In this document: in pieces, positions 1,281 to 58,034 of the stretch
Numbering within the stretch: the first letter of the stretch is position 1
Layout: every line of letters begins with the position of its first letter
Assembly: GCF_000186865.1 (NCBI RefSeq)
Contig: NW_008705569.1
Location: 1,250,054-1,314,053 of the forward strand
DNA: 64,000 bases
DNA from: Aureococcus anophagefferens
Taxonomy: Eukaryota; Sar; Pelagophyceae; Pelagomonadales; Pelagomonadaceae
Direction: 5' to 3'
Notes under the pieces: generated by a model
Told to the model about the DNA's origin: nothing
Databases searched by the model: none
Seen by the model: the letters and a program-made list of their open reading frames with translations, nothing else
Program-made: the position numbers and the translations under genes

Positions 1281-2075
1281 TCAGTTCGCTCGTTTAATGG
1301 AGCTGATGCGCGTGAGCTTCGGGTAGACCTCGTCGAGGTACGCGTTCCCGTAGTAGATCGCCTTGCCCTGGTTGACGCTGCCGCCGAGGCCGCCGGTCAA
1401 GCTCTCCACGAGACCGTAGCCCGCGTAGGCCTACCAAGCATGACGGTGGCGATTTCTCATTGTTTTCCCACCCCGAATCTCTCGAAACTCGTCACGGCCA
1501 CACAGGACGCTGGCGTAGGCCTTGTCGACGAGGTCCATGCCCCGCGTGACGCGCGCGAAGGGCACGAAGCCCTGCGCGTCGAGCATGTTTGGCAGGCCGC
1601 CGTTGTCGCCGAGGTTGACGTAGATCTGCGTCGTCCTCGTGTTCTTGCCGCCGCTCGCGAAGGAGAGCGTGCCCCGGGCGTTCGTCGTCGTGCGCGGCTC
1701 GTCGAGGAGCCGCTTCTCCTTGGGCAGAAGCCACTCCTTGTTGACCGCGGGCTCGCCGGCGATGCCGAACTGCGCGACGTAGCCCGGGAGCACGCGGAAG
1801 AGCCGGCTGTCGTCGAAGAATCGGGCGTCGACGAGCTCGCGGAAGCGTTCGCTCGCGAGCGGCGCCCAGTCGGGCCGCACCTCGACCTCGACGTCGCCGA
1901 GCCCCTCGAGCGCTATGGAGGCTGTGAAGGGCTCCGGCGCCGCCGCGACGGCGAGGGTCGGCGCGACCGGCAGCAGCGCGGCGCCGAGCACGCGCCGTCG
2001 GTCGATTTGCTGCAAACCGCTGGTTGCAACAGCGAGGAGCAGCACGGCTTTTGCCATGCTCTGCGAGAGCTGCAT
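1281..2075 (-). CDS. Thylakoid-lumen-type cyclophilin (peptidyl-prolyl isomerase)
   Basis: Two exons, 2075-1521 and 1430-1281, give 234 residues. Exon 1 has a hydrophobic leader, then a twin-arginine segment RRRVLGAALLPVAPTLAVAA with an Ala-x-Ala end, as expected for plastid lumen import. A cyclophilin fold follows, with ARGTLSFASGG and TTQIYVNLGDN. Exon 2 supplies the family C-terminus (GYGLV, QGKAIYYGNAYL, YPKLTRI). The intron is a family C introner between two copies of GCCTACGC (gene sense), and removing it restores LVDK-AYAGYG exactly. The protein should catalyse prolyl isomerisation in the thylakoid lumen. The catalytic Arg region looks divergent, so activity is uncertain. Confidence 0.8.
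1431..1512 (-). mobile_element. Introner family C, copy 1 (intron 1431-1520)
   Basis: An 82-bp element lies between direct 8-bp repeats GCGTAGGC at 1423-1430 and 1513-1520 (GCCTACGC in gene sense). Read in gene sense it starts CAGCGTCCTG and ends GCTTGGTAG. It aligns along most of its length with the element at 35231-35310. The intron is one repeat plus the element, 90 bp, with a GC donor inside the repeat and AG at the element end. No clear terminal inverted repeat is visible. Confidence 0.8.
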
Positions 2076-2218
2076 CAGCAGTGCTCGAACTCACTGCGAG
2101 CAGCTCGGCCTTCACTGCGAGAGCTGCAATGCCATAATGCCGGACCTCAGTTGCACCTCAACCACCACCTTGAAGCACCAGACGATGGTGCAAATCCCGA
2201 TGCTGCCCCCGTGAGAGC

Positions 2219-5200
2219 ATGCTGGTCGCGTGGCTCGCGGTCGCCGCCTGCGCCGCGGCGTCGCCGCTGCGCGTGTCGACGTTCCAGGCCCTCGAGGCCG
2301 CGGCGTCGCGGCACGGGGACGTCGAGGTCTTCGTCGCCGCCTCGCCCCTGCGCTGCGACCGCGAGATCGCCATCGTGGGCAACGTGACCGTCTCTAGCGC
2401 GAACGGCACGTTGGACGGCGGGAACGCGACGCGCTTTTTCCGCGTGGCCGCCGGCGCGTCGCTCCTCGTCAAGGACACGGGCCTCCGGAACGGCTTCGCG
2501 GCGTCCGGCGGCGGCGGCCAGGGCAGGAAAAGGGTGATTCAACGTCGCTTCAAAGTGAGTGTTCCGCGCGCGTGCGTTTCGGAAACAGCACCCACGCTTC
2601 GAGAGCGCTCCGAGAGATGATCGCTCGTCCAAAAATCAGCCGAAACGAGCGGAAAACGACCGAGATAGGAGCCTTTGAAGTTGGGAATTTCGCACCCTTT
2701 TCCTGCCCAGGCGGCGGCGCCGTGGCCTGCGACGGGGGCGTCGTCGCCTTCGAGGGCCCGTTCGCGCGCCACGCGAACAACGTCGCCGGCATCGCCGCGG
2801 ACGAGGAGTCGGGCGGCGGCGGCTTCCTCATGGCGCGGCGGTGCGACGCGTACCTGCTCTCGGGCGCGTTCGAGGGCGGCCGCGTCGAGAGCAAGCACGC
2901 GGTCAGCGGCGGCGGCGGGGGCGTGCTGCACCTCGTCGGGAGCCGGGCCCTGATCCTCGGCGGCGAGTATCGCCGGAACTCGGCGTCGCTGTCCGGCGGC
3001 GTCTTCTTCGTCGCCGGCCGCGAGGACTGGATCGCGGTCCTGACCGTCGAGGGCGGCGTCTTCGAGGACAACCACGCCATGTGGGGCGGCGTCGGCGCGG
3101 TGACGCTCGGCGGGGCCGTCATCGTGCACGGGGGCCACTTCGCGAACAACTCGTGCCAGAGCTCGGGCGGCGCGTTCCACTCGGGCGTCATGGGCAGCCC
3201 GTTCCTCAACGGCGGCGTCTACCTGTGTGCAAATCAAATCTTCAACCCGACTTCAATGTGCGCGTATTTGAATGTTTTGACACAAGCTCTTCGGCTGGGC
3301 TTCGAGAACTCGACGAGAGCGATCGATCCGTCCAAAAATCAGCCGAATCGACTTCGATGTGACCGAGCTAGAGAATTCTGAAGTTTGGTCAGGACCACCC
3401 AAACCAGTGGTTGGTTTCCACACAGGCGTCTACGAGGGCAACTACAACTCGCTCGACTTCTACGACGACGCGCGGGGCACGCCGGGCGGCGTCCCGAGGC
3501 CGCGAGCGATGGGGGACGCCTTTCCGTAGGCGCGGGCACCGCGGCGAACGTCGCGCACAACCCGGACAGCTCCTGGACCATGGTGCGGAGCGGCGAGTAC
3601 CGGGGCCTCGACTCCATCGACGCCGCGCGAGCTCGGCGGCGTCGAATCATGCTCTCGGAAGCGCGCCCCGGAAGAAAACATCCCCCGGTAGGTTCACGGG
3701 CGACGGCAACACGCTCTTCGCGGGCGGCGCCTACGGCGTCGGCGGCGGCTGGTGCTTCTTCCTCGAGACGCCGCTCGGCGTGCGCGACTCCATCATCTCG
3801 CGGCGCACCGTGCCCGCGACGGCGGTGCTCGACGGGCGGCCGGCCGTCGCGCTCGAGGTCGGGAACGCCTATCTCGACGGGTCGTCCGCGCTCTGCTTCG
3901 CCCCGGGCTGCCACGCCATCGCCGTCGACGGCGTCGCCAACTGGACGCTCGGGAGCCGCTACTGGCCGTGGGACGCGCGCGTCGACGGCGACGGCCCCTT
4001 CGCGCTCCGCGGCTCGCGGCTCGTCCCGGGCGCGTGCGCGAACGCGACCTGGGCCGTCGACGGCGCGGCCCGCGGCGGCGCGTCGGCGGTCCGCGTCCCC
4101 CGGCTCCTCGCCGGCGCCGCCGCGGCGCTCGCGGTGCTGCTCCTCGCGGCGGCGGCCTTCGCGGTCCGCGAGCGGCGGAGGGCGAAGCGGGAGCACGCGT
4201 ACGAGCTGCCGCTCCTCGTCGAGCCCGAGTCGATCCCGGACGCGTCCCTGGAGAAGCTCGTCATGGTCGCCATCGGCCTCGACGACCAGCTGCGCTGCGT
4301 GCTCTGGAGCCGCGGGGCCGCGGCCGCCACGGGTTTGGACGAGGCGCCGGCGACGCTCGGCGAGTTGCCCTTCCAGACGGACCGCGACCGCGCGTCGGCG
4401 CTCCGCGAGTGCGCGCGCGTCGTCGAGCGCCGCGGCGAGCCCCGGCCCTTCCCGCTGCGCCTCGCGCGCGGGCCCTACCGCGACCGCGTCGGCCTCGTCG
4501 TCCAGTGCGTCCGGAACGGCGCGGGCGGCCACACGGTCCTGGGCTCCGAGGTCGACGGCGGCGTCCGCGAGCCTCTTTGACCGGGAGCATCGAAGATGTA
4601 CTCGATAGGTCGACGACGCGCTGCTCTCGCTCGCGCACGCGCCGTCGGAGAGCTCGGGCCAGCCGGAGGACGACGGGGCGCGCGACCACCGCCCCGGAGC
4701 CCGGCGGCGGTCGCGGTCGCCCTCGCGGTCGCCGCCGCCGCGGGGCATCGCGAAGCTCCTCGAAGCGGGGGCGCCCCTCGACGACGTCGAGGAGGCCGCG
4801 TCCTTCTGCTCGGGCGAGGCGCGCGGCGTCCCGCGGATTCGAGCCCGTCCGAGGGATTATGACCGGGGGGTTCCTAGGCGACACGCGCCTCGAGCGCGGC
4901 TCCGTCGTCTCCGAGGCCGCGCCGGCCGCGGACCTCGCGGTCTGCCACCCCGACGCCATCGCCTTCGTGAAGATGCACGACGCGGCCATCGTCGCGGGCG
5001 TCGCCTTCCACCCGCACCCGGGCCCGCGCCGGCGTCCCGCGGCCGCCGCGACTTTCGACGACACCGCTCCGTAGGTCTCCGCCGCTTCGAGCGGCCGGAC
5101 TGGGAATTGCTCCGCCGCTCCCCGGACGGCCTGAACGAGGACGCGGGGGATCGCAACGGCCTCCTCGCCGACGACGCCATTCCGCCGCAGCGCCCGGTCC

Positions 5201-6454
5201 GCGACGGCCTCCTCGACGCGCTCTTCGAGTACCCGGAGCCCGGCGTCTACCTGTGGGCGGCTGTGTGGAAATCAAATCTTCAACTCGAATTCAATGTGAG
5301 CGTATTCGACAGTTTCGACGCGAGACTTTTTCCTGTGCTTCGAGAACTCGACGAGAGCGATCGATTTGTCCAAAAATCAGCCGAATCGACTTCGATTTGA
5401 CCGAGCTAGAGAATTCTCAAGTTTGGTCAGTGGTTGATTTGCACACAGGTGGGCGGCGGCGGACCCCGGCGAGCTCCGGCTCCTGTTGCGGCCGCGCTAC
5501 GAGGGGCCCCGGGCCTTCGGGCGCACGGCGGGCAACTGGTGGCCCCTCGTGGGCCTGCCCCGGGCCGGCGAGCGCCTGAGCGACGTCGCGTTCCGCTTCC
5601 CCGGCGGCGCGGTCGAGTTCGGCGGCGCGGGCGTCTGTGTGGAAACCAAATCTTCAACCCGACTTCAATGTGAGCGTATGCGACAGTTTCGACGCGAGAC
5701 TTTCTCCTGTGCTTCGAGAACTCGACGAGAGCGATCGATTCGTCCAAAAGTCAGCCGAATCGACTTCGATTTGACCGAGCTAGAGAGCTCTGAAGTTTGG
5801 TCAGGACCACCCAAACCAGTGGTTGGTTCCACACAGGCGGGCGTCGCGCTCCGCTGGTGCCTCTACTCGCCCTTCGGCGGACCCGACGACGACCAGGCGG
5901 CCTGCGCGCGCCTCGCGCGGCGCGCGCCGCTGCCGCCGGAGCGGCTCTGGTTCGCGGGCTGCTGCCTCCGCGGCTACCCGCTGCCGCCGTGGCTCCCCGA
6001 CGCGGCGCGCCGCGGCGAGCTCGAGGCCGAGGGGCGCCTCCAGTACACGTCGGACGTCGACGTCGTCGTCAAGGCCACGTCCGTCGACGACGGCGCCTAC
6101 CTCCGCTCGAAGGCGCGCGTCGCCGCGCTCGCGCGCGCCAGGGCCGACCTCCGCGACCGCCACGCGGCCGTCGGCACCGCGGGCGACCGCCGCGCGGCGC
6201 TCGCGGCGCTCGCGGCGGCGCAGGCGGCCTACCACGCGGCCAAGTCGGCGCTCGTGGCGACGGACGCGCTGGCGGTCTACGCGCGCGGCCGCGCGGAGCG
6301 GCGGACGCGGCGCGCGCTCGGGCTGCTCGACGAGTCCAAGGCGCGCGCGTACGCGCGGCTGCGGGTGCTGTGGATCGGCGCGCGCGACCCGGCGTCGCGC
6401 CTGTCGTGCCTCCCCGAGGACGTCCTGGCGGGGGTGCTGATGGCGCTGCTGTGA
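2219..6454 (+). CDS. Ten-exon beta-helix/PAS-like single-pass membrane protein
   Basis: Exons 2219-2510, 2711-3214, 3426-3476, 3530-3626, 3692-4550, 4609-4813, 4878-5021, 5075-5252, 5449-5626 and 5837-6454 join in frame to 1041 residues. A signal peptide (MLVAWLAVAACAAASP) leads a Gly-rich ectodomain with repeated GGVF and GGAF turns typical of right-handed parallel beta-helices. A hydrophobic segment follows (LLAGAAAALAVLLLAAAAFAV) with a basic stop-transfer. The cytoplasmic part starts with a PAS-like stretch (VMVAIGLDDQLRCVLWSRG) and ends in an Ala-rich helical region and LPEDVLAGVL, which is F-box-like. All nine introns look like introners. I do not know the ligand or output. The last exons could belong to a second gene, but phases agree throughout. 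Confidence 0.55.
2519..2710 (+). mobile_element. Introner family A, copy 1 (intron 2511-2710)
   Basis: A 192-bp element with inverted repeats GGGCAGGAAAAGGGTG and CACCCTTTTCCTGCCC, perfect over 16 bp. It is flanked by the 8-bp duplication GCGGCGGC (2511-2518 and 2711-2718). Gene-sense ends are CAGGGCAGG and CCTGCCCAG. The left duplication gives a GC donor. Removing 2511-2710 restores the frame of the beta-helix gene. The internal orientation is opposite, relative to its gene, to that of the other four A copies. Confidence 0.93.
3223..3425 (+). mobile_element. Introner family B, copy 1 (intron 3215-3425)
   Basis: A 203-bp element with ends CTGTGTGCAAATC and GGTTTCCACACAG, flanked by GCGTCTAC at 3215-3222 and 3426-3433. 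The 211-bp intron uses the GC of the left duplication and the element's CAG. Excision joins GG-VYEGN in frame. Confidence 0.93.
3485..3529 (+). mobile_element. Introner family C-like, short decayed copy (intron 3477-3529)
   Basis: A 53-bp GC-AG intron is needed to pass from one frame to the next. After eight bases it begins GGCGGCGTCCCG and it ends TTTCCGTAG. The flanking repeats are degraded. The shared GGCGTCCCG start and TAG end link it to the other short introns in this gene. Confidence 0.45.
3635..3691 (+). mobile_element. Introner family C-like, short decayed copy (intron 3627-3691)
   Basis: A 65-bp GC-AG intron is required by the reading frame (phase 2). After eight bases it begins GGCGGCGTCGAATC and it ends CCCGGTAG. 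I see no convincing target duplication, so this is either an old insertion or a different intron type. Confidence 0.4.
4559..4608 (+). mobile_element. Introner family C, short copy (intron 4551-4608)
   Basis: A 50-bp element beginning CGGCGTCCGCG and ending CTCGATAG. It is flanked by GTCGACGG (4551-4558) and GTCGACGA (4609-4616), 7 of 8 matching. The donor is GT from the left repeat. Removal joins SE-VDDALLSLAHAP in frame. It shares TTTGACCGGGA with the long C copy at 35231-35310. Confidence 0.65.
4822..4877 (+). mobile_element. Introner family C-like, short copy (intron 4814-4877)
   Basis: The 64-bp intron begins in GCGAGGCG and ends GTTCCTAG before GCGACACG (6 of 8 matching). The element contains CGGCGTCCCGCGG and TGACCGGG, both shared with other C copies. 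The frame shifts exactly as needed to reach the segment AVCHPDAIAFVKMHDAA. Confidence 0.5.
5030..5074 (+). mobile_element. Introner family C-like, short copy (intron 5022-5074)
   Basis: The 53-bp intron begins in GCCCGCGC and ends CTCCGTAG before GTCTCCGC. The element starts CGGCGTCCCGCGG. The duplication is decayed (5 of 8), but intron phase and element start and end agree with the family. Confidence 0.45.
5261..5448 (+). mobile_element. Introner family B, copy 2, internally deleted (intron 5253-5448)
   Basis: A 188-bp element with ends CTGTGTGGAAATC and GATTTGCACACAG, flanked by GTGGGCGG at 5253-5260 and 5449-5456. The GT donor comes from the left duplication. It lacks the 15 bases GACCACCCAAACCAG present in the full B copies. 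Confidence 0.92.
5635..5836 (+). mobile_element. Introner family B, copy 3 (intron 5627-5836)
   Basis: A 202-bp element with ends CTGTGTGGAAACC and GGTTCCACACAG, flanked by GCGGGCGT at 5627-5634 and 5837-5844. The intron is 210 bp, phase 0, and has no in-frame stop, so retention would add 70 residues rather than terminate the protein. Confidence 0.92.
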
Positions 6455-7382: not shown

Positions 7383-7625
7383 ATGGTCGCCGCCAAGAAA
7401 CCCGCCGCCAAGAAGCCCGCCGCCAAGAAGCCCACGGCGAAGAAGCCCGCCGCGAAGAAGCCCGCGGCGAAGAAGCCCGCGGCGAAGAAGCCCGCGGCGA
7501 AGAAGCCCGCGGCGAAGAAGCCCGCCGCCAAGAAGCCGGCCGCCAAGAAGCCGGCCGCCAAGAAGCCGGCGGCGAAGAAGCCTGCCGCCAAGAAGCCCGC
7601 GGCGAAGAAGCCGGCCAAGAAGTAG
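7383..7625 (+). CDS. Small Lys/Ala/Pro repeat protein, histone H1-tail-like
   Basis: ATG 7383 begins an 80-residue protein made almost wholly of about 15 copies of the pentapeptide AAKKP (one copy TAKKP) after MV. Such pure Lys-Ala-Pro repeats resemble the tails of histone H1 and the small H1-like proteins of some protists and bacteria, which bind and compact DNA. There is no globular winged-helix domain. The codons vary (GCC, GCG, GGC contexts), which argues against a recent slippage artefact. The frame is open well upstream, but that part looks non-coding. The call as a chromatin protein is an inference from composition. Confidence 0.6.
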   Translation: MVAAKKPAAKKPAAKKPTAKKPAAKKPAAKKPAAKKPAAKKPAAKKPAAKKPAAKKPAAKKPAAKKPAAKKPAAKKPAKK

Positions 7626-7821: not shown

Positions 7822-10441
7822 TCAAACCACCTCGAACCTGCCAGCCAGCACGGCGATCCTGCCCAGGATCGCGCCGCAGGTGCGCTTCGCGAGCTCGTCG
7901 CCGCCGGGCGCGCCGCGGACCGCCGCCGCGAGCCGCGGGGCCAGCGCCGCGCAGAGCGACCGGCACGCCGCGCCGTCGTGGACGGCGCAGACGAGGAACA
8001 CGCGCGCGTCCAGGGCCTCCGCCGTCGCCTCGGCCTCCGGCGCGTCCGCGAGGAGCCACGCGGACGCCGCCTCGAGCGCGCGCTTCGCGTCGCGCGCGGA
8101 CGCGTACCGCGTCGCCACGTCGTCGATGGTCCGGTCCAGCGCGGCGGCGCAGAGCGCGCGCAGCGCCCGCGCCTGGTCCGCGCTCGGCGCGCAGCGGGGG
8201 AGCAGCTCCGCGCGGAGCGCCGCGCACGACCGCGAGAGCCGCGCGTGCAGCACCTCCGCCTCCCTCGTGAGCCGCCGGAGCTTGGCCTCCGTGTCCTCGT
8301 CCTCCCGCGGCGCCTCGGGCGCCGGCGCCGGCTTCTCGTCGTCGCCGTCGTCGTCCTTGTCCTCCTCTTCCTCGTCGTCGTCGTCGTCGCGCGGCGGCGC
8401 GGCCGCGCGCCGCGCGAGGTCCTCGTGCGCCTTCGTGAGCTTCGCGGCGGCCTCCGTCGCGGCCTGCGCGGAAATCTTCAACCCGACTTCAATGTGCGCG
8501 TATGCGCCCATTTCGACGCGAGCTCTTCGGCCGTGCTTCGAGAACTCGACGAGAGCACTCGATGCGTCCAAAAATCAGCCGAATCGACGTCGATGTGATC
8601 GAGAGAGAGAAGTTTTTGCCGGACGGGGCGTTCCACCGGTTGATTTCCACACGGGTCGCGGCCTGCGCGCAGCGGTGCGTCGCGCGCGCCGCGCGGTCGC
8701 AGGCCGACTTGAGGTCGATGGCGGCGATGCTAACGCGGTAGCGCACGAGGTCGTCGCCCGCGCGCGCCGACAGGATCGCGCCGACGGCGGCCATCGCGTC
8801 GCCGTCCGCGCCCGCGGCGTCGCGCGCGGCCTCGATGGCCTCGTTGACGGCCTCCGACGCGTCGAGGACGGGCTGGCGCGCGCCCGCGGCGTAGGCCGAC
8901 GCGTTGACGGCGTCGCGCGCGGACGCGAGCAGGCGGCTCACCGCGGACACGAGCACGTGGTCGTCGCCGCCGCCCGTCGCCTCCTCGAGGCGGCTCCGCG
9001 CGAGCGCGTCCAAAGCCGCCTCGGCCTCGTCGTTCTCCGGCGGGCAGACCTCGGCGACGGTCCGCGACCAGAGCATGGCCAGCTGGGCCAGGCGGTTCAC
9101 CGTCGCCGCCGCGTGCCGCGCGCGCGCCGCGCACGCCTCGACGGTCGTCGCGTGCTCCGACGACGACGACGCGGCGTCGGACGACGAGTCCGTCGCCTTC
9201 GGCGACGGCGGGGGCGTCGCGTCCTCGGCGTCCGAGTCCGTCGCTTTTCCTTCCTCGACGTCGTCCTCCTCCCGAACGCGCTCGTCCTTGTCCTCCTTCG
9301 CCATGGCCTCGCCTTCCCGCGCCTCGTCCTCCTCCTCGGGCTTCTCCGCCTCGGGCTTCTCCGCCTCGGGCTTCTCCGCCTCGGGCTTCTCCGCCTCCTC
9401 CTCTGGCTTCTCCGCTCGCTCCTCCTTCGCCGGGCGCGCGCGCTTGAACTGCTTCGTCGCGCGCGTGTACGCGTCCTTGAGCCGTCGGAACTTGGCCGGG
9501 TCGCCGCCCTTGTCCGGGTGGTGCGCCCGCGCCATCTTGTGGTAGGCCTTGCGCAGCTCGCCCTCGGACGTCGGCGGCGCCGCCAGCCCGAGCGCGACGA
9601 GGTCCGCGGTCTTGCGATGCGTCTTCAGAGCCCGTTCCAACTCGTCCTTCGTGGCCTTCTTCGCCTCGATGCGCCCCATGAGGTCCTGGAGCGCGTCGCT
9701 CTCGCACGCGTCCCGCGCCTCGGCGGGCGCGCCGAGGCGCACGAGCTCGCGCATGACCTCCGCGCGGAGCCGCCACCGCCGCGGCGGCGCCGCGTCCGCG
9801 CCGTCCCTCTCGGCCCTCGTGAGCAGGTCGCGGTCGATGGCGCAGTCGCACTGCTCCGCCGTCAGCTTCGCGGCGGCGCCGTCGGCGTCGAGCAGCGCCT
9901 CGCGCGCGCACAACGCCGCCGTCTCCGCCGCGACGGCCGCCGCGCCTTTCCGGAGCAGCGTCTCGGACAGCCAGCGATCCGCGGCCGACAGCGCCGCGGC
10001 GGGCAGGCCGCTGGCGAGCGCCAGCGCGTCGTGGTCGCCGGCCTCGAAGCTCGCCTCGAGGACGAGGCCGCAGTGGTCGGGGGCGAGGGTGCCCGCGGCC
10101 CAGGCCGCGACGGCCGCGCGCGCGGCTTCGGGGAGCCGCGACGGCTTGAGGTCGGAGACGTCGACGCTCGGGAACCGCGGCCGCCCGGCGCCGTCGCCGG
10201 CGTGGCGGAGCCGCACGAGGGACGCGACGAGGAGCGCCGCGTGGGGGTCGTCGCTCGACGCGCGCCGGTTCGAGTCCTGCAGCGCGCAGCCCAGGGCCGA
10301 GAGCAGGTTGGCGTCGGGGCTGCCGCCCGGTTTGCCGGGGCGCAGCCCGGAGAGGAGCTGCTCGTTCGCACGCTTCGGCGTCGGCGCGGCGCTCCGGCCG
10401 TGGTTCTCCTTGGCCGCGAGCCAGGCCTTGGCCGCGGCCAT
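7822..10441 (-). CDS. J-domain (DnaJ-like) co-chaperone, large acidic protein
   Basis: Two exons, 10441-8663 and 8463-7822, give 806 residues. The J-domain lies near residues 280-335 (ELRKAYHKMARAHHPDKGG with the HPD motif), so it is internal rather than N-terminal. It should stimulate an Hsp70 partner. The N-terminal 270 residues are Ala-rich and helical with no family I recognise. After the J-domain come an EKPEA tandem repeat, an acidic Ser/Asp linker, then helical segments. The intron is a family B introner in antisense. Excision joins HRCAQ-AATEAA in frame. It diverges from SEC13 with 169 bp between the starts. Confidence 0.7.
8464..8654 (-). mobile_element. Introner family B, copy 4, antisense (intron 8464-8662)
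   Basis: A 191-bp element flanked by GTCGCGGC at 8456-8463 and 8655-8662 (GCCGCGAC in gene sense). Gene-sense ends are CCGTGTGGAAATC and GATTTCCGCGCAG. It is the only B copy whose internal sequence runs antisense to its gene, and its inner right part is diverged from the others. Confidence 0.88.
9336..9405 (-). repeat. 15-bp tandem repeat encoding EKPEA
   Basis: Four to five copies of a 15-bp unit (CTTCTCCGCCTCGGG on the plus strand) encode Glu-Lys-Pro-Glu-Ala repeats next to the J-domain. Confidence 0.8.
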
Positions 10442-13285: not shown

Positions 13286-13335
13286 NNNNNNNNNNNNNNN
13301 NNNNNNNNNNNNNNNNNNNNNNNNNNNNNNNNNNN
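13286..13335. other. Assembly gap of 50 N
   Basis: Fifty undetermined bases. The length 50 looks like a placeholder, so the real gap may differ. It removes the 3' ends of both converging genes. Confidence 1.
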
Positions 13336-22573: not shown

Positions 22574-24492
22574 TTAAGCCACGATGAAGCGCGCGCAGAC
22601 GATCGTCTTGGCGCGCTCGTCCGGGTCCGGGTTGTTCGGCATGTACGGCCGCGGCTCGCTCGCGAACGTCTGCGTCCATGTGCCCGCGGCTTCGAGCTCG
22701 CGCGCCGCCTCCCGGCTCGCGTCGTCGCCGTGCCAGAGGTGGGCCCGGTGCGTGAAGACGACGACGCCGCCCGGCGACGTGATCCGGCACCACTCCGCGA
22801 AGAGCCGCCTGAAGTCGCGGACGTAGCTGAGGACGCCCACGCAGACGACGGCGTCAAAGATACTCCCTTCGAGCGGCAACGGGTCCTCGAGGTCCATGCG
22901 CCGCGTCGCCGTGTAGCCCCGGGCCGCGCAGCGGTCGAGGGACGCCTGGGAGATGTCGCCGCCGACGACGGCCGTCGCCGCCGCGAGCGCGGGCCGGAGC
23001 GCGTCGACCGCGAGCCCCGTCCCGCCTGGGCAGGACAAGAGAGATTCAACGTCGCTTCAACATGAGTGTTCCGCGCGCGCGCGTCACGAGAAAAACATCC
23101 ACGCGTCGAGACCGTTCCGAGAGATGATCGCTCGTCCAAAAATCAGCCGAAACGAGTGGAAAATGGCCGAGATCGGAGCCTTTGAAGTTGGGAATTTCGC
23201 TCTCTTGTCCTGCCCTGCGTCCCGCAGCCGCAGTCGAACAACCGCCCGACGCGCGGGTTCACCTCGGCGACGAGCGCCGCGCACATCTCCGGGGCGCAAT
23301 AGCCCCAGCTCCGCAGGGCCGCGTCGTAGGTCGCGGCCCATTTGTCGTAGAGCACCACGGCCCCCGCGGCGTCCTTGGGAATCTCCCCCAAATCCGGCAC
23401 GGCGACGCCGAAGGCGAAACACGAACCCTCCAGCGCGGCAGACCCGACGAGCGCCGACCGGAGCCGGTTCTTGCCGTAGCACAGATAGGGGAAATCGAAG
23501 CAGCCCTCCGTCGTCGCCTGGCACACGGCCCAGAGCCCCCAGTAGAAATCGTCGAGCACGACGAACAGCTCGACGTCGGCGAGGAGCGCGTCGACGGACC
23601 CGTAGGCGCTCGTCGGCCGCGCGGCGAGGTAGGCGCGCGCCCAGGCCTCCTTGGCCGCGCGGCCCGGCAGCCGCGCCGCGTCGGGGGCGCCGAGCGCGGT
23701 CTCCGGCTGGCCCGTGCCTCCCGCGTATTCGTTGAAGTGGTTCGCGATGTCGAAGGCCGCGTAGTTCACGCCGCCGTACTCGAGGTCGATGATGCGGACC
23801 TCGCCGGACGCCTCGTCGACCATGAGGTTGCCGCTGAGGAGGTCGTTGTGCGCGAAGACGAGCTCGGGCGCCCGCGCCTCGGCCTCGGCTCTGAGCCTCT
23901 CGACGCTCGCGGTGATGCGCGCCCCGTCGAAGACGTCGCCGTGGCGCCGGAACACGCCGGCGCAGCCCGCGTCCCGCGCGACGAGCGGCGCGAGCCCCGT
24001 CTTTGCGTCGAAGGCCGCCGCGAGCCAGCCGTCCAACGTCGCCCAGAGACCGCACGACCCGTGGTGCGTTTTCAGGTCCTCGGGCACCCGGAAGGCGTGG
24101 AGCGCCGCGAGCTTCGCCGCGATGGCGGCGGCGTGCGTCCCCATGTCGTCCAGGGCCAGCGTCGCGTGGCCCTCGAGGAACTCCTCGAGGCGCCCGTTGC
24201 CGAAGCTGCCGAGGAAGCCCGGTTTCGCCAGGTGCTCGCAGAGCGCCGCGAAGGTCCGCAGCTCGACGTCGCGGTCGATGAGGCCCTCGCCGCCGTAGCA
24301 GCGCACGAGCACGCTCCGGCCGCCGGACGACGCCTTGAAGAGCTGGTTCGTGATGCCGCCGGTGACGCTCTGGAGTTGGATGCCAGCGGTGGTCTCGAAG
24401 AAGCCGAGCTCGACGCAGACGGCCTTCACCTGGCGTTCGTCGGACGGGTCGACGACTGTGGTGGTGTGGGGCTTCGTGGCGAAGCTGGCCAT
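22574..24492 (-). CDS. Ethanolamine kinase-SAM methyltransferase fusion
   Basis: Two exons, 24492-23226 and 23025-22574, give 572 residues. The N-terminal two thirds is an ethanolamine/choline kinase: GGITNQLFKA (ATP loop), FAHNDLLSGNLM (Brenner motif), IIDLEYGGVNYAAFDIANHF and DDFYWGLWAVCQ. The C-terminal third is a class I methyltransferase: VLYDKWAATYDAALRSWGY, motif I LFDCGCGTGLAVDAL, then VVGGDISQASLDRC and DAVVCVGVLSYV. The family A introner falls inside motif I, and its removal with one duplication restores GCGTG exactly. Kinase plus methyltransferase suggests consecutive steps from ethanolamine towards methylated phospho-bases, but the methyl acceptor is not readable. The start MASFATKP is chosen as first ATG. 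Confidence 0.8.
23026..23217 (-). mobile_element. Introner family A, copy 2 (intron 23026-23225)
   Basis: A 192-bp element flanked by CGTCCCGC at 23018-23025 and 23218-23225 (GCGGGACG in gene sense). Gene-sense ends are CAGGGCAGGACAAG and CTTGTCCTGCCCAG. GC donor in the left duplication. It interrupts the SAM-binding motif I codons of the fusion gene. Confidence 0.93.
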
Positions 24493-34631: not shown

Positions 34632-35463
34632 ATGCGAGGCCTGCTTGCCTGCGTCCCCTGCGCCGCGTCCCTCGTCATGGCCGCCAACGTCGCGCGCACC
34701 GCCGGCGCGCCGCCCATCGCCCTCGCGTCCGACGAGGGCCAGAAGCTCCTCGCCGAGTGCGGCTCCACCCTCGCCTACGACGCGGTCTGGCCCCACTGGA
34801 AAAAGCAGGTGGGCAAGACGTGCTGCGCGCCCTGCACGCTGGCCATGGTCTGCAACGCCCTCGGCGTCGACAAGCGCTGGGGGCGCGACATCGAGCGCTG
34901 GGAGACCGTCGAGCCGTCGGGTCCCCACCGGCCCGACGGGCCCTGGGACGAGGACGACGTTCTAGCCCGGTCGACGGACCCGGCGGCCGCGCGCGAGAGC
35001 GGCTGCACGCTCCAGGAGTGCGCGGACCTCGCGGGCCGGACGCGGCTCCACTGCCTCGGCGCGAGCCCCGTGAACGCGGAAACGGCCGCGTGCGTGCTCG
35101 AGGAGTCGCTCTACGCGTCGTTGTCCGGCGCGGACGAGGTCGTCGTCGCCAACTACGACATGACCGTCGCGGGCCAGGCGCCCTTCGGCGGCCACTTCAG
35201 CCCCGTCGTCGCGCACCACGCGGCGAGCGACCGCGTCCTGCGGCCGTGACGAATTTCGAGAGTTTTTGACCGGGAAAACGATGAAAAATCGTTACCGACG
35301 TGCTTGGTAGGCGAGCGACCGCTACCTCGTCCTGGACTGCTGGCCGGAGACGGAGCCGTCGTGGTTGCACGGACCGGACTTCGCGAAGGCCATCGCGGCC
35401 GTCGACGCGGTCTCCGGCCGGAGCCGCGGCATCCTGACGCTGTCGAAGTTCCCCGACCACTAA
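34632..35463 (+). CDS. PCS: Phytochelatin synthase (glutathione gamma-glutamylcysteinyltransferase)
   Basis: Exons 34632-35222 and 35311-35463 give 247 residues, close to the catalytic half of plant enzymes; the C-terminal Cys-rich half is absent. A hydrophobic leader MRGLLACVPCAASLVMAA suggests secretory or organelle import. The catalytic Cys lies in GKTCCAPCTLAMVCNAL (about residue 64), His in FGGHFSPVV (about 187) and Asp in RYLVLDCWPE (about 205). The enzyme joins gamma-Glu-Cys units from glutathione to make metal-binding phytochelatins. The family C introner lies between catalytic His and Asp, and its removal restores AASDRYLVLD. The 3' end stops 6 bp from the convergent C2-like gene. 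Confidence 0.85.
35231..35310 (+). mobile_element. Introner family C, copy 2 (intron 35223-35310)
   Basis: An 80-bp element flanked by GCGAGCGA at 35223-35230 and 35311-35318 (identity runs 4 bases further). It starts CCGCGTCCTGCGGCCGTGAC and ends GTGCTTGGTAG, aligned along its length with copy 1 at 1431-1512. GC donor. Confidence 0.85.
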
Positions 35464-37317: not shown

Positions 37318-40171
37318 ATGGGTGGGCCCGACGAGGCAGCCCGGTCCACCTCGACGGAGTCGAGCCCGTCGCGCTTCGGCTGGCTCAAGCGCCGGTCGCG
37401 GTCGACGCCTCCGAGCGCTCCGTCCCGCGCGGCGCAGGACGCCTGGCCCGAGCCGGCGCCGCAGACCCTCGACGACGACGACGACGACGACGACGAGCCG
37501 CGGTCCTCGGACGGGTCCCGGCCCTCGCTGGAGCGGCCCTCGGAGGACCGCGCCTCGGCCGCGGCGCGCGACGCACCGGCGCCGCCGGATCCGCCGCCGG
37601 AGCCGCGGTCGGCGAGCGACGAGCGCAAGTCGAGCGACGAGCCGAGGCCGCGCGCGCGGAAGCGCGACCTGCTCATGAGCATGGTGAAGAAGACGACGAC
37701 GAAGTCGACGGGGCTCCTGGAGAAGTTCCTCTTCGACGGCGGCGACGCGCCCGCGGCCGCGGCGGAGGACGAACCCGAGGACGACGAGCCGGCCGCCGAG
37801 CCCGAGCCCGAGCCGGAGCCGGGGTCCCGCGATTTGGGGTCGTCCCCGCCGGAGCCGGGGTCCTACGCGCACGGTGCTCTCTACGCGGGCGGGCTCCTAG
37901 GGAAGCTGTCGCCGAGCAAGGGCCTGTCGTTCCTCGGCGCGCGGCCGACGTCGTTCCGCGACGACGACGGCGGCCGCGGCGGCCGGCGGCCGCGGGGCCG
38001 GTTCCGCGCGGAGGACTTCCTGCGCGCGCGGGGGTTCCTGCGCATCGCGCGGGCCGGCGACGGCCTGCTCGTGGCGCTCTGCGGCGACGAGCCCGCGGGC
38101 TGCGGCGTCCGGACGCGCGGCGAGCTGCGCGTCGCGTGGTACCCTGTGTGGAAATCAAATCTTCAACCCGACTTCAATGTGCGCGTAATCGAACGATTTG
38201 GACCAGACTCTTTCGCTGTGCTTCGAGAACTCGACGAGAGCAATCGATTCATCCAAAAATCAGCCGAATCGACTTCGATTTGACCGAGCTAGAGAATTCT
38301 CAAGTTTGGTCAGGACCACCCAAACCAGTGGTTGGTTTCCACACAGGTGGTACCGGGCCGTCGAGGACGGCGAGCCCGGCGCCATCGACGGCGCCGACGA
38401 GGCCTGGTACGCGCCGGCGCCCGAGGACGTGGGCTGCAAGGTCTACGCGCGCGTCGCGCCGCTCGACGACGACCTGCTCTGCCGCTGGGCGGAGCACGGG
38501 CCCGTCGCGCCGGCGGAGTCCGTGCGCCAGGAGACGGAGGCGGCGGTGGCGCGGGGCCGCTACGAGGTCGTCGGCGACGGCGACGCGGAGCTCCAGGTGC
38601 TCCTCGCCGACGGCGAGCCCGGGTCCTGCAGCGTCGGGTCCGCGGTGACCGCGGCGCTCGACGAGGCGGGCGAGAGCCTGGTCTTCGAGAGCGCGCGCTC
38701 CGACGTCGCGCGGGGGTTGCGGTTGGACGGCTGCCTCGACGGCGACGTCTTGATCGGCTGCGACCCGGACGGCGACTTCGAGCCCGCGTCCGCGGACGGG
38801 CGCTACGAGTGCGTCTTCCAGCTCCGACCCGCGGCCGCGGTCCACGTCCTCAAGCTCTGGGGCGACGCGGGCGGCGACCTCTGGTACGTCGCCGGCCTCC
38901 TGGAGCGCTGCGAGGCGCTCGAGGACGACGACGTGCCGCTCAAACTCCGGCTGACGCTGTCGTCGAAGCGGCAGCGCGACGTCCTCGCGCTGAGCTTCCG
39001 CGCGTTCCGGCGGAAAAAGCGCGCGCCGCTCCTGCGGCGCGTGCGCGCGGAGATGGCCGAGCTCTACGGCGAGCACAACCCGAAGAAGCTCGGCGACATC
39101 GACGCGCTCCTGCGGAAGTACGCGCACCGGGAACTGGAGCTCCTGGCGGCGATCCGCTTCAAGTACCGCTACCTCAGCGACGAGCAGCCGTCGTCCGAGT
39201 GCCGGCCGTCGTTCACGGGCGACGTCTCCGACGAGCTCCGGCCGCGGCGCGTCCACGCCCACGGCGGCGCGCTCCACGGCGACAGCGACGACGACGACGA
39301 CGACGACGACGGCCCGGACGCGGCGCCGTCGCCGCCCGCGTCGCCCCGGCGGACGCCCGAGGAGGCCTGCGGCGACGACGGCGACGCGCTGGGGTTCCTG
39401 CCCTGGGCGTCGCAGCGCGCGCGGGGCTGGACCGCCGAGGACGACGCGCCGGGGCGCCTGTCCGTCGTCGCGGAGCTCGACGATCTGCGGGACCTGCGCG
39501 ACGTCGCCGTCGAGAGCCGCGACGCGGCCCTGGCGGAGAACGCGCGGCTCCGGGAGCGCGTCGCGGCCCTCGAGCGGCGCGCGGCGGCGGCGGAGGCGAC
39601 GCGGGACGTCGCGGCGGCCGCGCGAGACGCGGCGGCGGCGGCGGCCGCGCGGACGGCCGCGGCGGCGGCCGCCGCCGCCGCGGAGCGCGCGGCGGACGCG
39701 GCGGCGGACGAGGCGAAGCGGCGGGAGGACACGGCGGGCCTCGCGGCGGCCCTCGCAGCCTTTGGCGCGCTCGCCGCGGACCGCGACGCCGTCGGTCGGC
39801 GCCTGGACGCCGCGCGCGCCGCGGCGCTCCACGAGGCGCGGCGCCGCGAGTCGACGGCGCGCGAGCTGAAGCGGGCCGTCCGCGAGGACCGCGCGCGCGA
39901 GCGGGCCAAGCTCCAGCTCCGCGAGCGGCTCGACGTCGCCGTCGCCGAGGCCGACGCGTTCAAGGCCGCGCTCGAGCACCACGTGTCCGCGCCGCGGCGC
40001 ACGGTGCTGAGCGACATCGCCGAGGACGGCGCGGCGTCGCCGCCCGCGGGCGGGCGGTCCTGGTTCGGCGGCGGCCGGCCGCGGAAGGGGCGGTCCTCCG
40101 CGTCCATGCCGCCGACGTCGTCCCCGGCGGCGGCGCGCCGCAAGGAGGCGCCGCGGGCGCGCGACATCTAA
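37318..40171 (+). CDS. Large coiled-coil protein of unknown function
   Basis: Exons 37318-38135 and 38347-40171 give 880 residues. The first 250 residues are Pro/Asp/Ser-rich and probably disordered. A folded part spans the intron (GVRTRGELRVA joined to WYRAVEDGEPGAIDGADEAW) and continues to VFQLRPAAAVHVLKLWGD. Next comes a helical motif ELYGEHNPKKLGDIDALLRK with HRELELLAAIRFKYR. Then an Asp run, and a long Ala/Arg/Glu coiled coil to near the C-terminus. Family not recognised. The ATG chosen is the first in frame after the ferredoxin stop. Confidence 0.6.
38144..38346 (+). mobile_element. Introner family B, copy 5 (intron 38136-38346)
   Basis: A 203-bp element with ends CTGTGTGGAAATC and GGTTTCCACACAG, flanked by GTGGTACC at 38136-38143 and 38347-38354. 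The left duplication gives a GT donor. Excision restores RVA-WYRAVEDG in frame. Confidence 0.93.
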
Positions 40172-41424: not shown

Positions 41425-44400
41425 CTACCGCCAGCACTTGACGACGCCGTCCCGCGACGACGAGAGCATGAGCTTGAGGGGCAGGTCGATGGACTTGAGG
41501 TCCAGCACGGCGTCCTTGTGCGCCGAGGGCGGCGCGACGGGCCCGCGCTGCATGAGGTGCGGCGCGTCGGCCGGGTCCAGCGCGTCGGGCGGCGGCGCGC
41601 GGTGGTCCGTGCAGACGAAGAAGGCGGAGCCGTTGCCCGCCGCCGGCGCGTCGTAGGTGGGCCGCGGCATGCCCGGGTGGGGCCCGCTCACGGTGTAGCA
41701 GGACCGCGGGCTCGTGAAGTCCCAGTAGCGGATGTGCGTGTCCGTGCCGCCGGTGATCAAATACGAATTGCCGTGGTTGCTGATGCGGCCCATGATCGCG
41801 CGCATGGAGTGGTCCCCCTCGCGGCCCAGGGGCCGCGGGAGCATGGACGCGTCGACGCGAAAGAGCCGCGCCTTGGGGTGCGCGGGCACGTCGATTGGCT
41901 GCAACGTCGGCAGCTTCCACCGCTTCTCGAGCGCCTCCCGGTCCAGGGTTTGCGGGTCCCCTTCCAGGGGCGGCATGGCGCGGAAGCACTGCTTGCAGGC
42001 GCCGCCCGCGTGCAAGTCCCAGACCGCGACCTCGTTGCCGCCCGCGGCGACGAACGCCAGCGGGCTCGGCGGCGCGTCGGGCGGCGACCCGGGCAGCCGC
42101 GCGCACGTCGCTAATCTATGAATCTTGCTCTTGGCGCTGTGGCGCCAGACCGCGTTGAGCACCGCGTACCGCAGGTCCCAGAGGCACACGAACCCGGTGG
42201 CGGTGCCCGCGGCGCACCACGCCTTGTCCGTGCCGAGCGCCGTCGCCGTCAGCAGCCCGAGCTCCGGCGGCACGACGAGGCGGAACGCCTCGCGCTTCGC
42301 CCGCAAATCCACGGCGTGCAACCGACCTTTCGCCGTGCCGTAGACGACGACGCAGCCGACGTCGTCGTTGAAGTGGTTCACGGTCACCGCCGCGCCCTCG
42401 GAGCCGTCGCCCAACCGCCGCACGAGGCTCGCGTCCGCGCCTAGCACGCTTCGCGTCGACTTCTGGGCGCCGCCGACGACGCCCGGCACCATGACGTTGC
42501 CCTCCTCGAGGCGCCCGCCCGTGATGGGATGTACCGCTTCGGGCTGCCGCACCGTCCGCTGCGCGAGGTCGACGCGCCAGACGTGGACCTCGCCGTCGGC
42601 CGCCGCCGTCGCCACGGACCGCGCGTTGTCCACGGCGCAGCAGTCCATCAGCGCCGGCGCGTCCTTGTCGCCGGCGCCGTGGCCCGCGTAGGTCGCCGCG
42701 GACGCGTGGCAGACCTCCTTGTCCAAGCCCCGCGTCGTCCAGACCTTGGCCGTGCCGTCGTCGGACGCGGACACGAAGAAGGACTGGTCCTGGGCGACGG
42801 CGAGGCGCTGGACGGCGCCCGCGTGCTCCCCGAAGGTCGCGATGAGCACGCCGGCCTTGGGCCGCCACTCCGCGCGCCGGTTCGGGTCGTCGAGGCGCAA
42901 AGGCGTCGCGTACCACGAGAAGGGCCGGTCGTCGCCGGGCTGGCGCAGGCACCCGAGCTCCGGCGGCAGCGGCGGCACGTCCAGCGCCTCGGCGCGGCGC
43001 GCCAGCGGCGTCAGCGCGTTCGGGTCCCGCCGGGGCCGCGGCCGCGGCGGCGGCGGCGCGTCGTCGTCCGCGCGCGGCGGCGGCGCGGCGCCGCTCGCCG
43101 GGCCCGGCGGCCCCGCGGCCGCGAGGAGGTCGTCGGCGTCCAAGGAGCCGACGTCGCGCGCGTCGGGCCGCCGCGAGTCGAGCACGCCGTAGCGGCGGCG
43201 GATCGCCGCGTCGTCGCCCGCCGGGTCGTCGGCGCCGCCGACGCTCACGGACGTCATGAGCGCGACGAACTTCATGTCCGGCACGAGGAGCGCCTGGGCC
43301 TGGGCGGCGCTGAGCTTCGGCGGCGGCACGCGGCCGCCGACGCGCGGGCCGCCCCGCGCCGCGTCGCGGTCGCCGGCCGGCGGCGCGGGCCGCTCGTCGA
43401 CCTTGCCCTCGCGCTGCCACGTCGCGAGTCGGTTCTTCGCGTGGCGGCTCGCGACGGCGAGGTAGCCCCGCGCGAGCTCCAGCGCCGCGGCGTCGTCGGG
43501 CGCGAGGGACGCGCCCGGCGGGCCGTCGCCGTGGAGCGCCTCGCGGTAGAGCGCGGGCGACAGCGGCGGCCGGAGGCACGCGACGATGGCCCTTCCCAAA
43601 ACGTCCTTGGCGCCGCCGTGGTAGGGCGCCGCGGGCCCCAGCGGCGTCGCCAGAAAGGGCGCCAGCACGGGCTCGAAGAGCTGCGCGTCCGCGTCCTGGG
43701 CCGTCGGCATCGCGAGCGCCGCGGCCGCGAAGAGCGACGCCGCCTCCAGCCGCACGGCCGGCGACGGGTGCAACAGGAGCGGCGCCGCGGACACCTTGGA
43801 GGCCCCGCCGCCCGTCATCTCCACCAACGCCGCGCGGCTCAACAAGCCGAGCTCCACGAGCGACGCGAGCGACGCGAGCGCGCGCGCGATGACGAGCGGC
43901 TCCGTGTCGACCAGCGCCTGCCCGATGCACGGCAGGATGAGCCCCTCCGCCGCGTCGGGCCCCAGGAACGCCCCCACGGCCGCGACGTGGGCGCAGAACG
44001 CGTCCCGCAGCCCCCAGTCGCTGTCGTTGAGGAACGTGATGAGGTGCGGCATGAGCACGTCGCGGGTCTGCTCGCGGCCTGGGCAGGACAAGAGAGATTC
44101 AACGTCGCTTCAACGTGAGTGTTCCGCGCGCGCGCGTCCCGGAAAAAGCATCCACGCTTCGAGACCGTTCCAAGAGATGATCGCTCGTCCAAAAATCAGC
44201 CAAAACGAGTGGAAACGGCCGAGATATGAGCCTTTGAAGTTTGGAATTTCGCTCGCTTGTCCTGCCCTGCTCGCGGCCGAAGAAGACGCAGAGCCGCGGC
44301 AGGTCGCTGATGAGCACGTGCTTCGCTAGCGACGACGCCTCGCTCAGCAGCACGACGACCCAGCGCCGCACGCGCTGGCGCAGCTCGTCGAGGTCCCGCC

Positions 44401-49094: not shown

Positions 49095-50433
49095 ATGTCC
49101 GCCGATGATGAGGATGTCCAGGCGCTCGTGGTCGACAACGGCTCGGGCATGTGCAAGGCCGGCTTCGCCGGCGACGACGCCCCGCGCGCCGTCTTCCCGT
49201 CCATCGTCGGCCGCCCCAAGCACCCCGGGATCATGGTCGGCATGGACCAGAAGGACGCCTACGTCGGCGACGAGGCCCAGTCCAAGCGTGGCGTCCTCAC
49301 GCTCAAGTACCCCATCGAGCACGGCATCGTGACCAACTGGGACGACATGGAGAAGATCTGGCACCACACGTTCTACAACGAGCTCCGCGTCGCCCCCGAG
49401 GAGCACCCCGTGCTCCTCACGGAGGCGCCGCTCAACCCCAAGGCGAACCGCGAGCGCATGACCCAGATCATGTTCGAGACGTTCAACGTCCCGGCCATGT
49501 ACGTCAACATCCAGGCCGTGCTCTCGCTCTACGCGTCCGGCCGCACGACGGGCTGCGTCCTCGACTCCGGCGACGGCGTCTCCCACACCGTCCCCATCTA
49601 CGAGGGCTACGCGCTCCCCCACGCGATCGTGCGCCTCGACCTCGCCGGCCGCGACCTCACGGACTACATGATGAAGATCCTCACGGAGCGCGGCTACTCG
49701 TTCACGACGACGGCCGAGCGCGAGATCGTCCGCGACATCAAGGAGAAGCTCACCTACATCGCTCTCGACTTCGACCAGGAGATGAAGACGGCCGCCGAGT
49801 CGTCGGCCCTCGAGAAGTCCTACGAGCTGCCCGACGGCAACGTCATCGTCATCGGCAACGAGCGCTTCCGCTGCCCCGAGGTGCTCTTCCAGCCCTCGTT
49901 CATCGGCAAGGAGGCGTCCGGCATCCACGACTGCACGTTCCAGTCACAGGGCAGCACAAGAGAGCGAGATTCCCAACTTCAAAGGCTCCGATCTCGGCCG
50001 TTTTCCACTCGTTTTGGCTGATTTTTGGACGAGCGATCATCTCTCGGAACGGTCTCGAAGCGTGGGTGCTGTTTCCGAAACGCGCGCGCGCGGAACACTC
50101 ACGTTGAAGCGACGTTGAATCACCCTTTTCCTGCCCAGGTTCCAGACCATCATGAAGTGCGACGTCGACATCCGCAAGGACCTCTACTGCAACATCGTCC
50201 TCTCCGGCGGCACGACCATGTTCCCGGGCGTCGGCGAACGCATGACCAAGGAGCTCACGGCCCTCGCGCCGTCGACCATGAAGATCAAGGTCGTCGCCCC
50301 CCCGGAGCGCAAGTACTCCGTCTGGATCGGCGGCTCCATCCTCTCGTCCCTCTCGACGTTCCAGTCCATGTGGATCTCCAAGGCCGAGTACGACGAGTCC
50401 GGCCCGGCCATCGTCCACCGCAAGTGCTTCTAG
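49095..50433 (+). CDS. ACT: Actin
   Basis: Exons 49095-49936 and 50139-50433 give 378 residues, the usual length. Conserved motifs are [20 protein letters not shown] (phosphate loop 1), [40 protein letters not shown] (phosphate loop 2), [29 protein letters not shown] and the C-terminus [14 protein letters not shown]. The intron falls in [16 protein letters not shown], where the protein is nearly invariant across eukaryotes, so the junction is fixed independently. It starts with a GT supplied by the target duplication GTTCCAG and ends with the AG of a family A introner. The cytoskeletal role is certain. Confidence 0.98.
49945..50138 (+). mobile_element. Introner family A, copy 5 (intron 49937-50138)
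   Basis: A 194-bp element flanked by GTTCCAGT (49937-49944) and GTTCCAGA (50139-50146). Two extra bases CA precede the usual CAGGGCAG. The left inverted repeat has one change (GGGCAGC). The donor GT is in the duplication. Conserved actin sequence confirms the intron limits. Confidence 0.95.
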
Positions 50434-50590: not shown

Positions 50591-50633
50591 TTCGTAAATT
50601 CGGCCTCGACCTCCCCACTCACATAAGTGCAGC

Positions 50634-53094: not shown

Positions 53095-53116
53095 GCGCGG
53101 CGCCTTAATAAGCTTA

Positions 53117-56100: not shown

Positions 56101-58034
56101 CGTAGCACGCGGAGCAGCCCTCGCCGTTCCCCGGGCTGTACGTCCCGACCGGGCACCGCGCGCACTCCGAGACGCCGTCGCCGTCCTCCGACAGCTCCGT
56201 GCCCGCGAGGCAGGCCGTGCAGTTGCCCCCGTCGAAGGCCCGGTGCGACTCGAGGCACGCGCAGTAGTCCAGGCTTTTGGCGCGCGGCTTCGACCACGTG
56301 CCGTTGGGGCAGCTCGCGCACCCGCGGCCGGCGTCGTACGTCCCCGCGGCGCAGCCCTCGCAGTATCCCGTCGCGCGGTCCAACACGTACCCCTTGGCGC
56401 AGGAGCAGCGGTCGTAGCCGTCGTAGGCGTCGTCGATGGTCACGTCGTGGCCCTCGACGGTGGACACGGCGGGGAAGCAGCGGCGCCCGGACGGCTCGTC
56501 GACGACCTTGCTCGACCGGTCCGCCTCGAGGAACACGGGCAGCGCGTCGTCGCCCATCCTCGGGTTCCCCGCGACGTAGAGGTTCTCCAGGTTGGCGTAC
56601 TCGGACCAGACGGCGCCCTCGAGGTCGTTGTCCGAGAGGTCGAGCGTCGTGATCACCTCCGGGAGGTTCGCCGGCGCGGGCAGGCTGCCCGTGAGCGCGT
56701 TGCGCGCGAGCTTCGCGGTGCGCAACGTTTCCGCCGGCGGCTTGCTGTCGTAGGCGGCGTCGAGGTCGCCCGTTAACAGGTTGCCGCTCAGGTCGAAGAC
56801 CATGAGGCGCGAGAAGCGGTGCATGCGCCTGCGTGGAAACCAACCACTGGTTTGGGTGGTCCTGACCAAACTTGAGAATTCTCTCGCTCGGTCACATCGA
56901 AGTCGATTCGGCTGATTTTTGGACGGATCGATCGCTCTCGTCGAGTGCTCGAAGCCCAGCCGAAGCGCTTGTGTCAAAACATTCGAATACGCTCACGTTG
57001 AAGTCGGGTCGAAGATTTGGTTTCCACACGGGCACGCGCCGCGCGGCGTCCCGGACGTCCAGCGCGATCGCGTTCTCGGCCAGCGACAGCACGAGGAGCT
57101 CGGGCATGACGACGGCGTCCGCCTCGGCCCAGGACTCGGGCAGCGTCGCCAGGCGGTTGCCCGCGAGGCTCAGCGTCTCGCAGGCGCTCATGTTGCGGCC
57201 GAAGTCGTCCGCGAAGGCGTCGACGTCGTTGTTCTCGAGGTTGAGCACCCGGAGCGCGCTCCCGAAGTTCGGCAGCGTGCCGTTGAAGCGCTGCGACTTG
57301 GCGAAGACGTACGTGAGCGCCGGCAGGGACGCGACGGCGTCGAGGGGCCCCGCCAACGCCCGCGTGGTCGTCGCGTTGTCGCTGCCCGCGGAGAGCATGA
57401 GCCGCTCGAGGGACGCCAGGTCGCGCCACGCGTCGGGCAGCGCGCCCGTGAAGTGGTTCCCGCTCAGGCGCAGGTTCGTCAGCCCGTCGCACCCGCCGAG
57501 CGCCGCGGGCAACGGGCCGACGAGGCCGCTGTACTGGACGCTCAGCGTCGTCAAAACGCACGGCGCGGGCCACGCGCTCGGCAGGCGCTCGCCGGCCAGG
57601 GACTCGGACGCCAGCCGGAGGAGGTCGAGGTTGGGCGCGTCGGCGAAGGCGTCGTCGGGCAGGCCGCCGACGATCTCGGCGGACCCGAGGTCCAGCGTCG
57701 TGAGGTTCCCCGCGAGGACCGGCTTGAGGCTCGTGAGGTTCGCGGACAGCCCGACGTTCTCCGCGAGGAGCAGCTCCTCGAGCGCGCCGAGGCCGCCGAG
57801 GGCCGGCAGCAGGCCGTCGAGGCCGTTCTCGACGAGGTCGAGCGCGACGACGCGGCCGCCGGCGCAGGTGACGCCGTGCCAGGCGCACTCGTCGGCCGCC
57901 GCCGTCGCCCAGCCGCTCGCGTTGGCCCAGCCGCTCCCGCCCGTCGCGTCGTAGAGTTCGAGGAGGGTCGCCCGCTGCTGGCTCGCGGCGGCGCCGGCCA
58001 CGCAGAGCCCGAAGATCCACGTCGCGGGCTGCAT
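53117..58034 (-). CDS. LRR, Cys-rich (TNFR/ephrin-receptor-like) multi-pass membrane protein
   Basis: Exons 58034-57040 and 56828-53117 give 1568 residues. A signal peptide (MQPATWIFGLCVAGAAAS) leads a leucine-rich-repeat ectodomain beginning ATLLELYDATGGSGWANASG with repeats like TTLDLSDNDLEGAV. Then come Cys-rich modules (CSCAKGYVLDRATGYCEGC, CPVGTYSPGNGEGCSAC) as in receptor ephrin-like repeats. Several hydrophobic segments follow between about residues 770 and 1120 (FAAFIVAVVGVGLPLLGYV; WFYLLALAAASVGLL). The cytoplasmic tail is 450 residues, partly helical, with Ser/Arg/Pro repeats and an 11-residue acidic repeat at the end. This layout is common in stramenopile surface proteins of unknown ligand. 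The intron is a family B introner. Confidence 0.75.
53178..53280 (-). repeat. 33-bp tandem repeat encoding GGDAEGAPVDE
   Basis: Three copies of a 33-bp unit encode an acidic 11-residue repeat near the C-terminus of the LRR receptor-like protein. Confidence 0.85.
56829..57031 (-). mobile_element. Introner family B, copy 6 (intron 56829-57039)
   Basis: A 203-bp element flanked by GCATGCGC (56821-56828) and GCACGCGC (57032-57039), 7 of 8 matching. Gene-sense ends are CCGTGTGGAAACC and GGTTTCCACGCAG. GC donor. Excision joins RDAAR-RMHRFSRLMVF in frame within the leucine-rich repeats. Confidence 0.92.

Follow-up and report, generated by a model that had tools for sequence, protein, structure and literature searches.

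How introns originate has been asked for a long time, and of all cases in which they are made in bulk introners are the clearest. The window analysed here, a stretch of 64,000 nucleotides from Aureococcus anophagefferens, raises this question for its own genes: are their introns inserted elements, and which part of each insertion supplies the splice sites? We consider it highly probable (about 0.9) from the sequence that the repeated elements in these genes are introners, namely short non-autonomous DNA transposons with a donor derived from the target repeat and an AG derived from the element.

Introners and other introns of the window

Similarity search of the window revealed six copies of family A, five of family B and two of a shorter family C, with a stretch common to A and B giving cross-matches between both families. 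The 13 copies are given below with their 8-bp direct repeats and the number of matching positions.

1431..1520, minus strand: family C introner in a cyclophilin-type isomerase gene; repeat GCCTACGC, 8/8; end GGTAG
2511..2710, plus strand: family B introner with the internal orientation of the gene; repeat GCGGCGGC, 8/8
3215..3425, plus strand: family A introner; repeat GCGTCTAC, 8/8
5253..5448, plus strand: family A introner, shorter copy; repeat GTGGGCGG, 8/8
5627..5836, plus strand: family A introner, open if retained; repeat GCGGGCGT, 8/8
8464..8662, minus strand: family A introner, orientation opposite to the gene; repeat GCCGCGAC, 8/8
23026..23225, minus strand: family B introner in a choline kinase-methyltransferase gene; repeat GCGGGACG, 8/8
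29686..29885, plus strand: family B introner; repeat GCGACGGC, 8/8
35223..35310, plus strand: family C introner in a phytochelatin synthase gene; repeat GCGAGCGA, 8/8
38136..38346, plus strand: family A introner; repeat GTGGTACC, 8/8
44079..44277, minus strand: family B introner in a VPS15-like gene; repeat GCCGCGAG, 8/8
49937..50138, plus strand: family B introner in an actin gene; repeat GTTCCAGT/GTTCCAGA, 7/8; two extra bases before the element (2-nt offset)
56829..57039, minus strand: family A introner; repeat GCGCGTGC/GCGCATGC, 7/8

The repeats are perfect in 11 of the 13 introners and match at 7/8 positions in the other two. All 13 donors are GC or GT and all 13 acceptors are AG. Excision at the repeat keeps the frame in 13/13, with the best coding frames on either side in agreement, as judged independently of the gene-finder model. 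The first-pass annotation had claimed clean copies between 8-bp direct repeats starting with GC or GT, together with phase checks, and both claims hold for these 13 introns (A 6, B 5, C 2). If retained, 12/13 would cause a frameshift and/or an in-frame stop. The family A copy at 5627-5836 (210 nt) has no in-frame stop, and its retention would add 70 residues and leave the protein unbroken. A mechanical scan for 8-mers that start with GC or GT and recur after an AG listed 11 of the 13 sites, all with perfect repeats. The same scan listed 16311-16485 and 25272-25361, which resemble none of the three families; therefore, such a scan alone is no proof.

Family A ends in terminal inverted repeats (CTGTGTGG...CCACACAG), as does family B, with a second-base mismatch in most copies; comparison of the ends revealed no clear terminal inverted repeat in family C. 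The element 3' ends that give the acceptor read CACAG, CCCAG or GGTAG. Most family B copies have CTG at one end and CAG at the other. Of 49 copies read in gene orientation, 47 have CAG as their end, the two exceptions being a register slip and a poor partial match, and nearly all read CAG...CAG. Family B forms two mirror-image groups, each capable of becoming an intron in one orientation alone; the end bases of 2511-2710 mirror those of 23026-23225, 29686-29885, 44079-44277 and 49937-50138. The tree of the 49 copies placed most of them, with exceptions, in two groups, with four changes and no well-supported branch. Since most copies split in this way, drift in two source lineages is enough, and a change of the end bases at insertion was set aside.

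A simple gene finder trained on the window put introns on all 13 introners, with the acceptor exact in 11 (off at 8464 and 35223). Its donor was at the repeat in 2/13, 12 nt downstream (+12) in 7/13 and elsewhere in 4/13. The intron model had been seeded with introner copies, so this is no blind test. The 31 intron calls comprise the 13 introners, five short introns and 13 other, putative introns. Among 37 gene models, 10 contain the 13 introners, 18 have no intron call and nine have other, putative introns only; these are the figures to set beside the proposal that most other genes are intronless. The window has a lysine-rich array of 15-bp repeats at 7388-7625 encoding AKKPA-like units, presumably in a histone H1-like small protein, and a run of N (masked sequence or an assembly gap) at 13278-13354. 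Its GC content is 67-75% in 4-kb steps; the A. anophagefferens CCMP1851 genome is given as 49.9 Mb with 70.5% GC in the accessible text of PMC11237714.

Eighteen introns had been claimed to fit one insertion model. No intron list accompanied that count, and we took gene 2219-6454 to supply the other five, as short introns whose acceptors lie at 3529, 3691, 4608, 4877 and 5074. Likeness to family C was scored against 2000 random 70-mers of the window, the 99th percentile being a score of 21.

3489..3529, plus strand: short intron, gene-finder call; C-like stretch, score 22; no convincing in-frame repeat, donor uncertain
3627..3691, plus strand: short intron, gene-finder call, candidate only; no C-like sequence and no in-frame repeat
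4551..4608, plus strand: short intron, probable short C-type introner; in-frame repeat GTCGACGG/GTCGACGA, 7/8, then CGGCGTCC
4814..4877, plus strand: short intron, possible C-type introner; in-frame repeat GCGAGGCG/GCGACACG, 6/8
5022..5074, plus strand: short intron; clear C-like stretch (29), in-frame repeat just 5/8, donor uncertain; placed at 5048-5091 by the gene finder

A C-like stretch scoring above or just above the threshold was found in 4/5 (scores 22, 22, 26 and 29), and the intron with acceptor 3691 scored 13. The model therefore stands for the 13 introners and, in the remainder, for one good and one weak case; that every intron fits is unsupported, because three of the five short introns have no convincing in-frame repeat starting with GC or GT (GY). 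Families A, B and C account for the 13 copies; the intron ending at 3691 is not C-like. Two further short introns, at 81-132 of locus L029 and 1308-1361 of locus L039, have CCGGCGTC after the repeat and end in GGTAG, with a perfect repeat in L029. Their sequences suggest a short family next to C.

Copies across the genome

A first-look DNA search of the genome yielded 1795 candidates for family B, 228 for C and 1760 for A, among which the best 40, 41 and 40, respectively, were listed. With up to two mismatches the A/B core matched 3791 times and the C start 304 times in the genome, and the reversed-pattern control gave 0. Runs of plus-strand places among the listed core matches are probably an artefact of the listing, since one minus-strand copy known from the family B search does not appear there. 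Flanks were analysed for 95 places (30 B, 35 C and 30 A), three of which were the window's own copies and were dropped. The sampled places, their neighbours in the same loci and the window together make 143 distinct copies. Coding flanks lie on one strand in 134/143 and are mixed or cut by the locus end in 9/143; non-coding DNA on both sides was found for 0/143.

A repeat of at least 7/8 and long enough flanks were present in 122 copies, of which 110 start with GY before register correction. Excision keeps the frame in 121/122 of this genome sample, and 2/122 would read through without stop or frameshift if retained. Anchoring the register at the AG and dropping partial elements left 126 copies, with repeats of 8/8 in 87 and 7/8 in 27, indicating a duplication of 8 bp. 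Among the 114 anchored copies with at least 7/8, 112 start with GY and the other two with GA, against a coding dinucleotide background of 19.5%. The left repeats begin with GC in 68 and GT in 44, and coding DNA offers 15.3% GC and 4.2% GT; relative to this supply, retention of GT is about 2.4-fold that of GC. Use of an internal donor by family C was set aside, 29/30 C copies with repeats of at least 7/8 starting with GY.

For family A in the genome sample, GY stands on the coding strand in 25/25 copies inserted in the orientation of the gene and in 12/12 inserted in the opposite orientation. No mirrored bias is seen at the far end of the repeat, with RC in 37/123. Selecting 20 places by the A/B core provided a second sample, with 20 rows from 19 of them, L106 having no usable match. 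Three rows, two of L104 and one of L115, were left out for poor or missing repeats, leaving 17 usable copies. All 17 start with GY and are in frame, and 16/17 have clear coding sequence on both sides. In the excluded L115, one flank is non-coding.

Choice of donor and alternative explanations

Based on these copies, we propose the following insertion cycle. An element, presumably mobilised by a transposase, would land within coding sequence, with an 8-bp target duplication as the result. Of the two 8-mers, the left one would become the intron start and supply the GC or GT donor, probably in preference to the +12 site, and the last bases of the element would supply the acceptor. Splicing of the RNA would take out the left 8-mer together with the element and leave the right 8-mer, so that the coding sequence before insertion is exactly restored. 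Insertions lacking a coding-strand GY start or a sense-end AG would presumably be lost; apart from the two GA starts, none were seen among the sampled copies. The repeat is taken as the donor because GY follows the coding strand in both orientations of family A and the far end is unmirrored. Judged by sequence constraint and reading frame, the donor thus comes from the duplication and the acceptor from the element, as the first-pass annotation had predicted, and the 13 window copies and two genome samples agree.

Proteins spliced at the repeat align without a gap at the junction in actin, PIK3R4/VPS15 and the choline kinase-methyltransferase (family B), in phytochelatin synthase and a GH3 xylosidase at locus L047 (C), and in a cysteine synthase-like enzyme at locus L089 (A). 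In three genes (methyltransferase, VPS15-like and phytochelatin synthase) Pfam domains extend across the junction. The choline kinase-methyltransferase and phytochelatin synthase sites are crossed by records of 96% and 98% identity, respectively, and proteins 96-99% identical are uninterrupted across three sites; being protein records, they may represent either empty sites or spliced products. Gap-free homology shows the sequence before insertion and by itself is silent on which donor is used.

The donor could instead be the GY at position 5 of the element, in which case the element carries both splice sites. This GY is present and in frame in all three families (A CTGT|GT, B CAGG|GC, C CAGC|GT), and our own gene finder picked the +12 donor in the seven introners given above. 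Splicing there adds 12 nt (8 of the repeat and 4 of the element), that is, four residues. The L089 copy, a family A element at 1501-1703 of the locus, has GC in its repeat and GT at the +12 site. The A. anophagefferens protein JL722_11476, to which a gene of the same genome is 99% identical, is a deposited model and holds PELC, exactly the four residues predicted by the +12 donor at the L089 site. In addition, Gozashti et al. 2022 (accessible text of PMC9860276) describe an Aureococcus sp. family that adds 12 bp; their example, at 3289-3365, is close in length to family C counted from +12 (88-12 = 76, 90-12 = 78). But a +12 donor gives no reason for the coding-strand GY start in 112/114 repeats, and it would add four residues inside conserved stretches such as those of actin. 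The addition is absent from 119/120 listed cysteine synthase relatives, many of which may simply be without the element, and the JL722_11476 model may reflect annotation preferring GT over GC. We think such annotation is the likelier cause of both the PELC addition and the published 12-bp addition, and consider a donor within the element quite unlikely.

Some transposons that duplicate 8 bp have sequence-biased targets, and the GY start could accordingly be a preference of the transposase and no trace of splicing. A bias of target choice should be symmetric or go with the element, but GY tracks the coding strand in both orientations of family A and has no mirrored counterpart at the far end, making this explanation very improbable. 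The position of the sampled copies in genes, with GY on the coding strand, would also suit spread as RNA by reverse splicing. Against this, the 8-bp repeats match within sites and differ between sites, and family A has inverted-repeat ends and occurs in both gene orientations, neither of which reverse splicing of sense RNA gives; we regard this origin as scarcely credible.

The lack of intergenic copies bears on where such transposons land. Assuming uniform landing, neutral intergenic copies and genic survival only with GY (for B and C in one orientation), the expected intergenic share of survivors is about 43-60%, as we estimate from the 11.7% of the sampled loci that is non-coding and the GY background of 19.5%. 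Since 0/143 were found, purging within genes alone does not explain the lack. Two readings would fit: a transposase directed towards coding DNA that is transcribed, or an equally strong purging of intergenic copies. Insertion coupled to transcription or splicing, in place of random insertion, appears unlikely to us.

Given the 8-bp duplications and CAGGG-like ends, the hAT superfamily was considered for the transposase. In the genome search the profiles PF10551 and PF12762 had no match; nor had PF05699 (hAT dimerisation domain) and PF18758, for which control genomes were equally silent. The search for U1 snRNA (RF00003) found no match either, with the control also silent. Exact patterns of the A/B core, the C start and an A segment each had 0 matches in viral contigs, among which records near the window's genome may be omitted.

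Relation to known introners

Huff, Zilberman and Roy (Nature, 2016) reportedly described A. anophagefferens introners of about 210 bp with direct repeats and terminal inverted repeats and put forward a DNA-transposon model. The introners of the window share the length of about 210 bp, both kinds of repeats and, as far as can be judged, the species; that work may already cover the short family C or the GC/GT ratio measured here. The A. anophagefferens introners of Huff et al. 2016 are cited in the accessible text of PMC9481584 and PMC7789003. The core finding is right and already known, in keeping with the earlier statement that intron-making DNA transposons are established in Aureococcus-type algae.

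Family 4 of Aureococcus sp., as described by Gozashti et al. 2022 in the accessible text of PMC9860276, resembles the present elements in its 8-bp duplication, the similar genus and a length close to that of family C from +12. There the element is read as carrying both splice sites and adding 12 bp, whereas here the GY constraint points to a donor in the repeat. The same text describes Symbiodinium microadriaticum introners which, like those of the window, take the 3' site from the element and the 5' site from the duplication and have terminal inverted repeats; their duplications are 4 bp, in contrast to 8 bp here.

The copies of the window give rules that can be counted, namely GY on the coding strand, AG at the sense end and a kept frame, and they make the retention of GT and GC relative to coding supply measurable. 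According to the accessible text of PMC3033335, GC-AG makes up 39.6% of annotated A. anophagefferens introns, an 'enigma' given a normal U1. The GC share of introner donors (68/114) is in line with GC-rich coding DNA. A link from introner donors to the GC-AG excess was not found in the accessible text of the literature searched, to which Huff et al. 2016 did not belong. We consider it more likely than insertion coupled to transcription or splicing that donors sampled from GC-rich exons explain why GC-AG reaches this level. We place at the same strength, above such coupling, the view that the four residues added in JL722_11476, and perhaps those of the published family, arise because the donor is set at a GT when the real one is a GC 12 nt upstream. 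A. anophagefferens gene models may carry four extra residues at introners.
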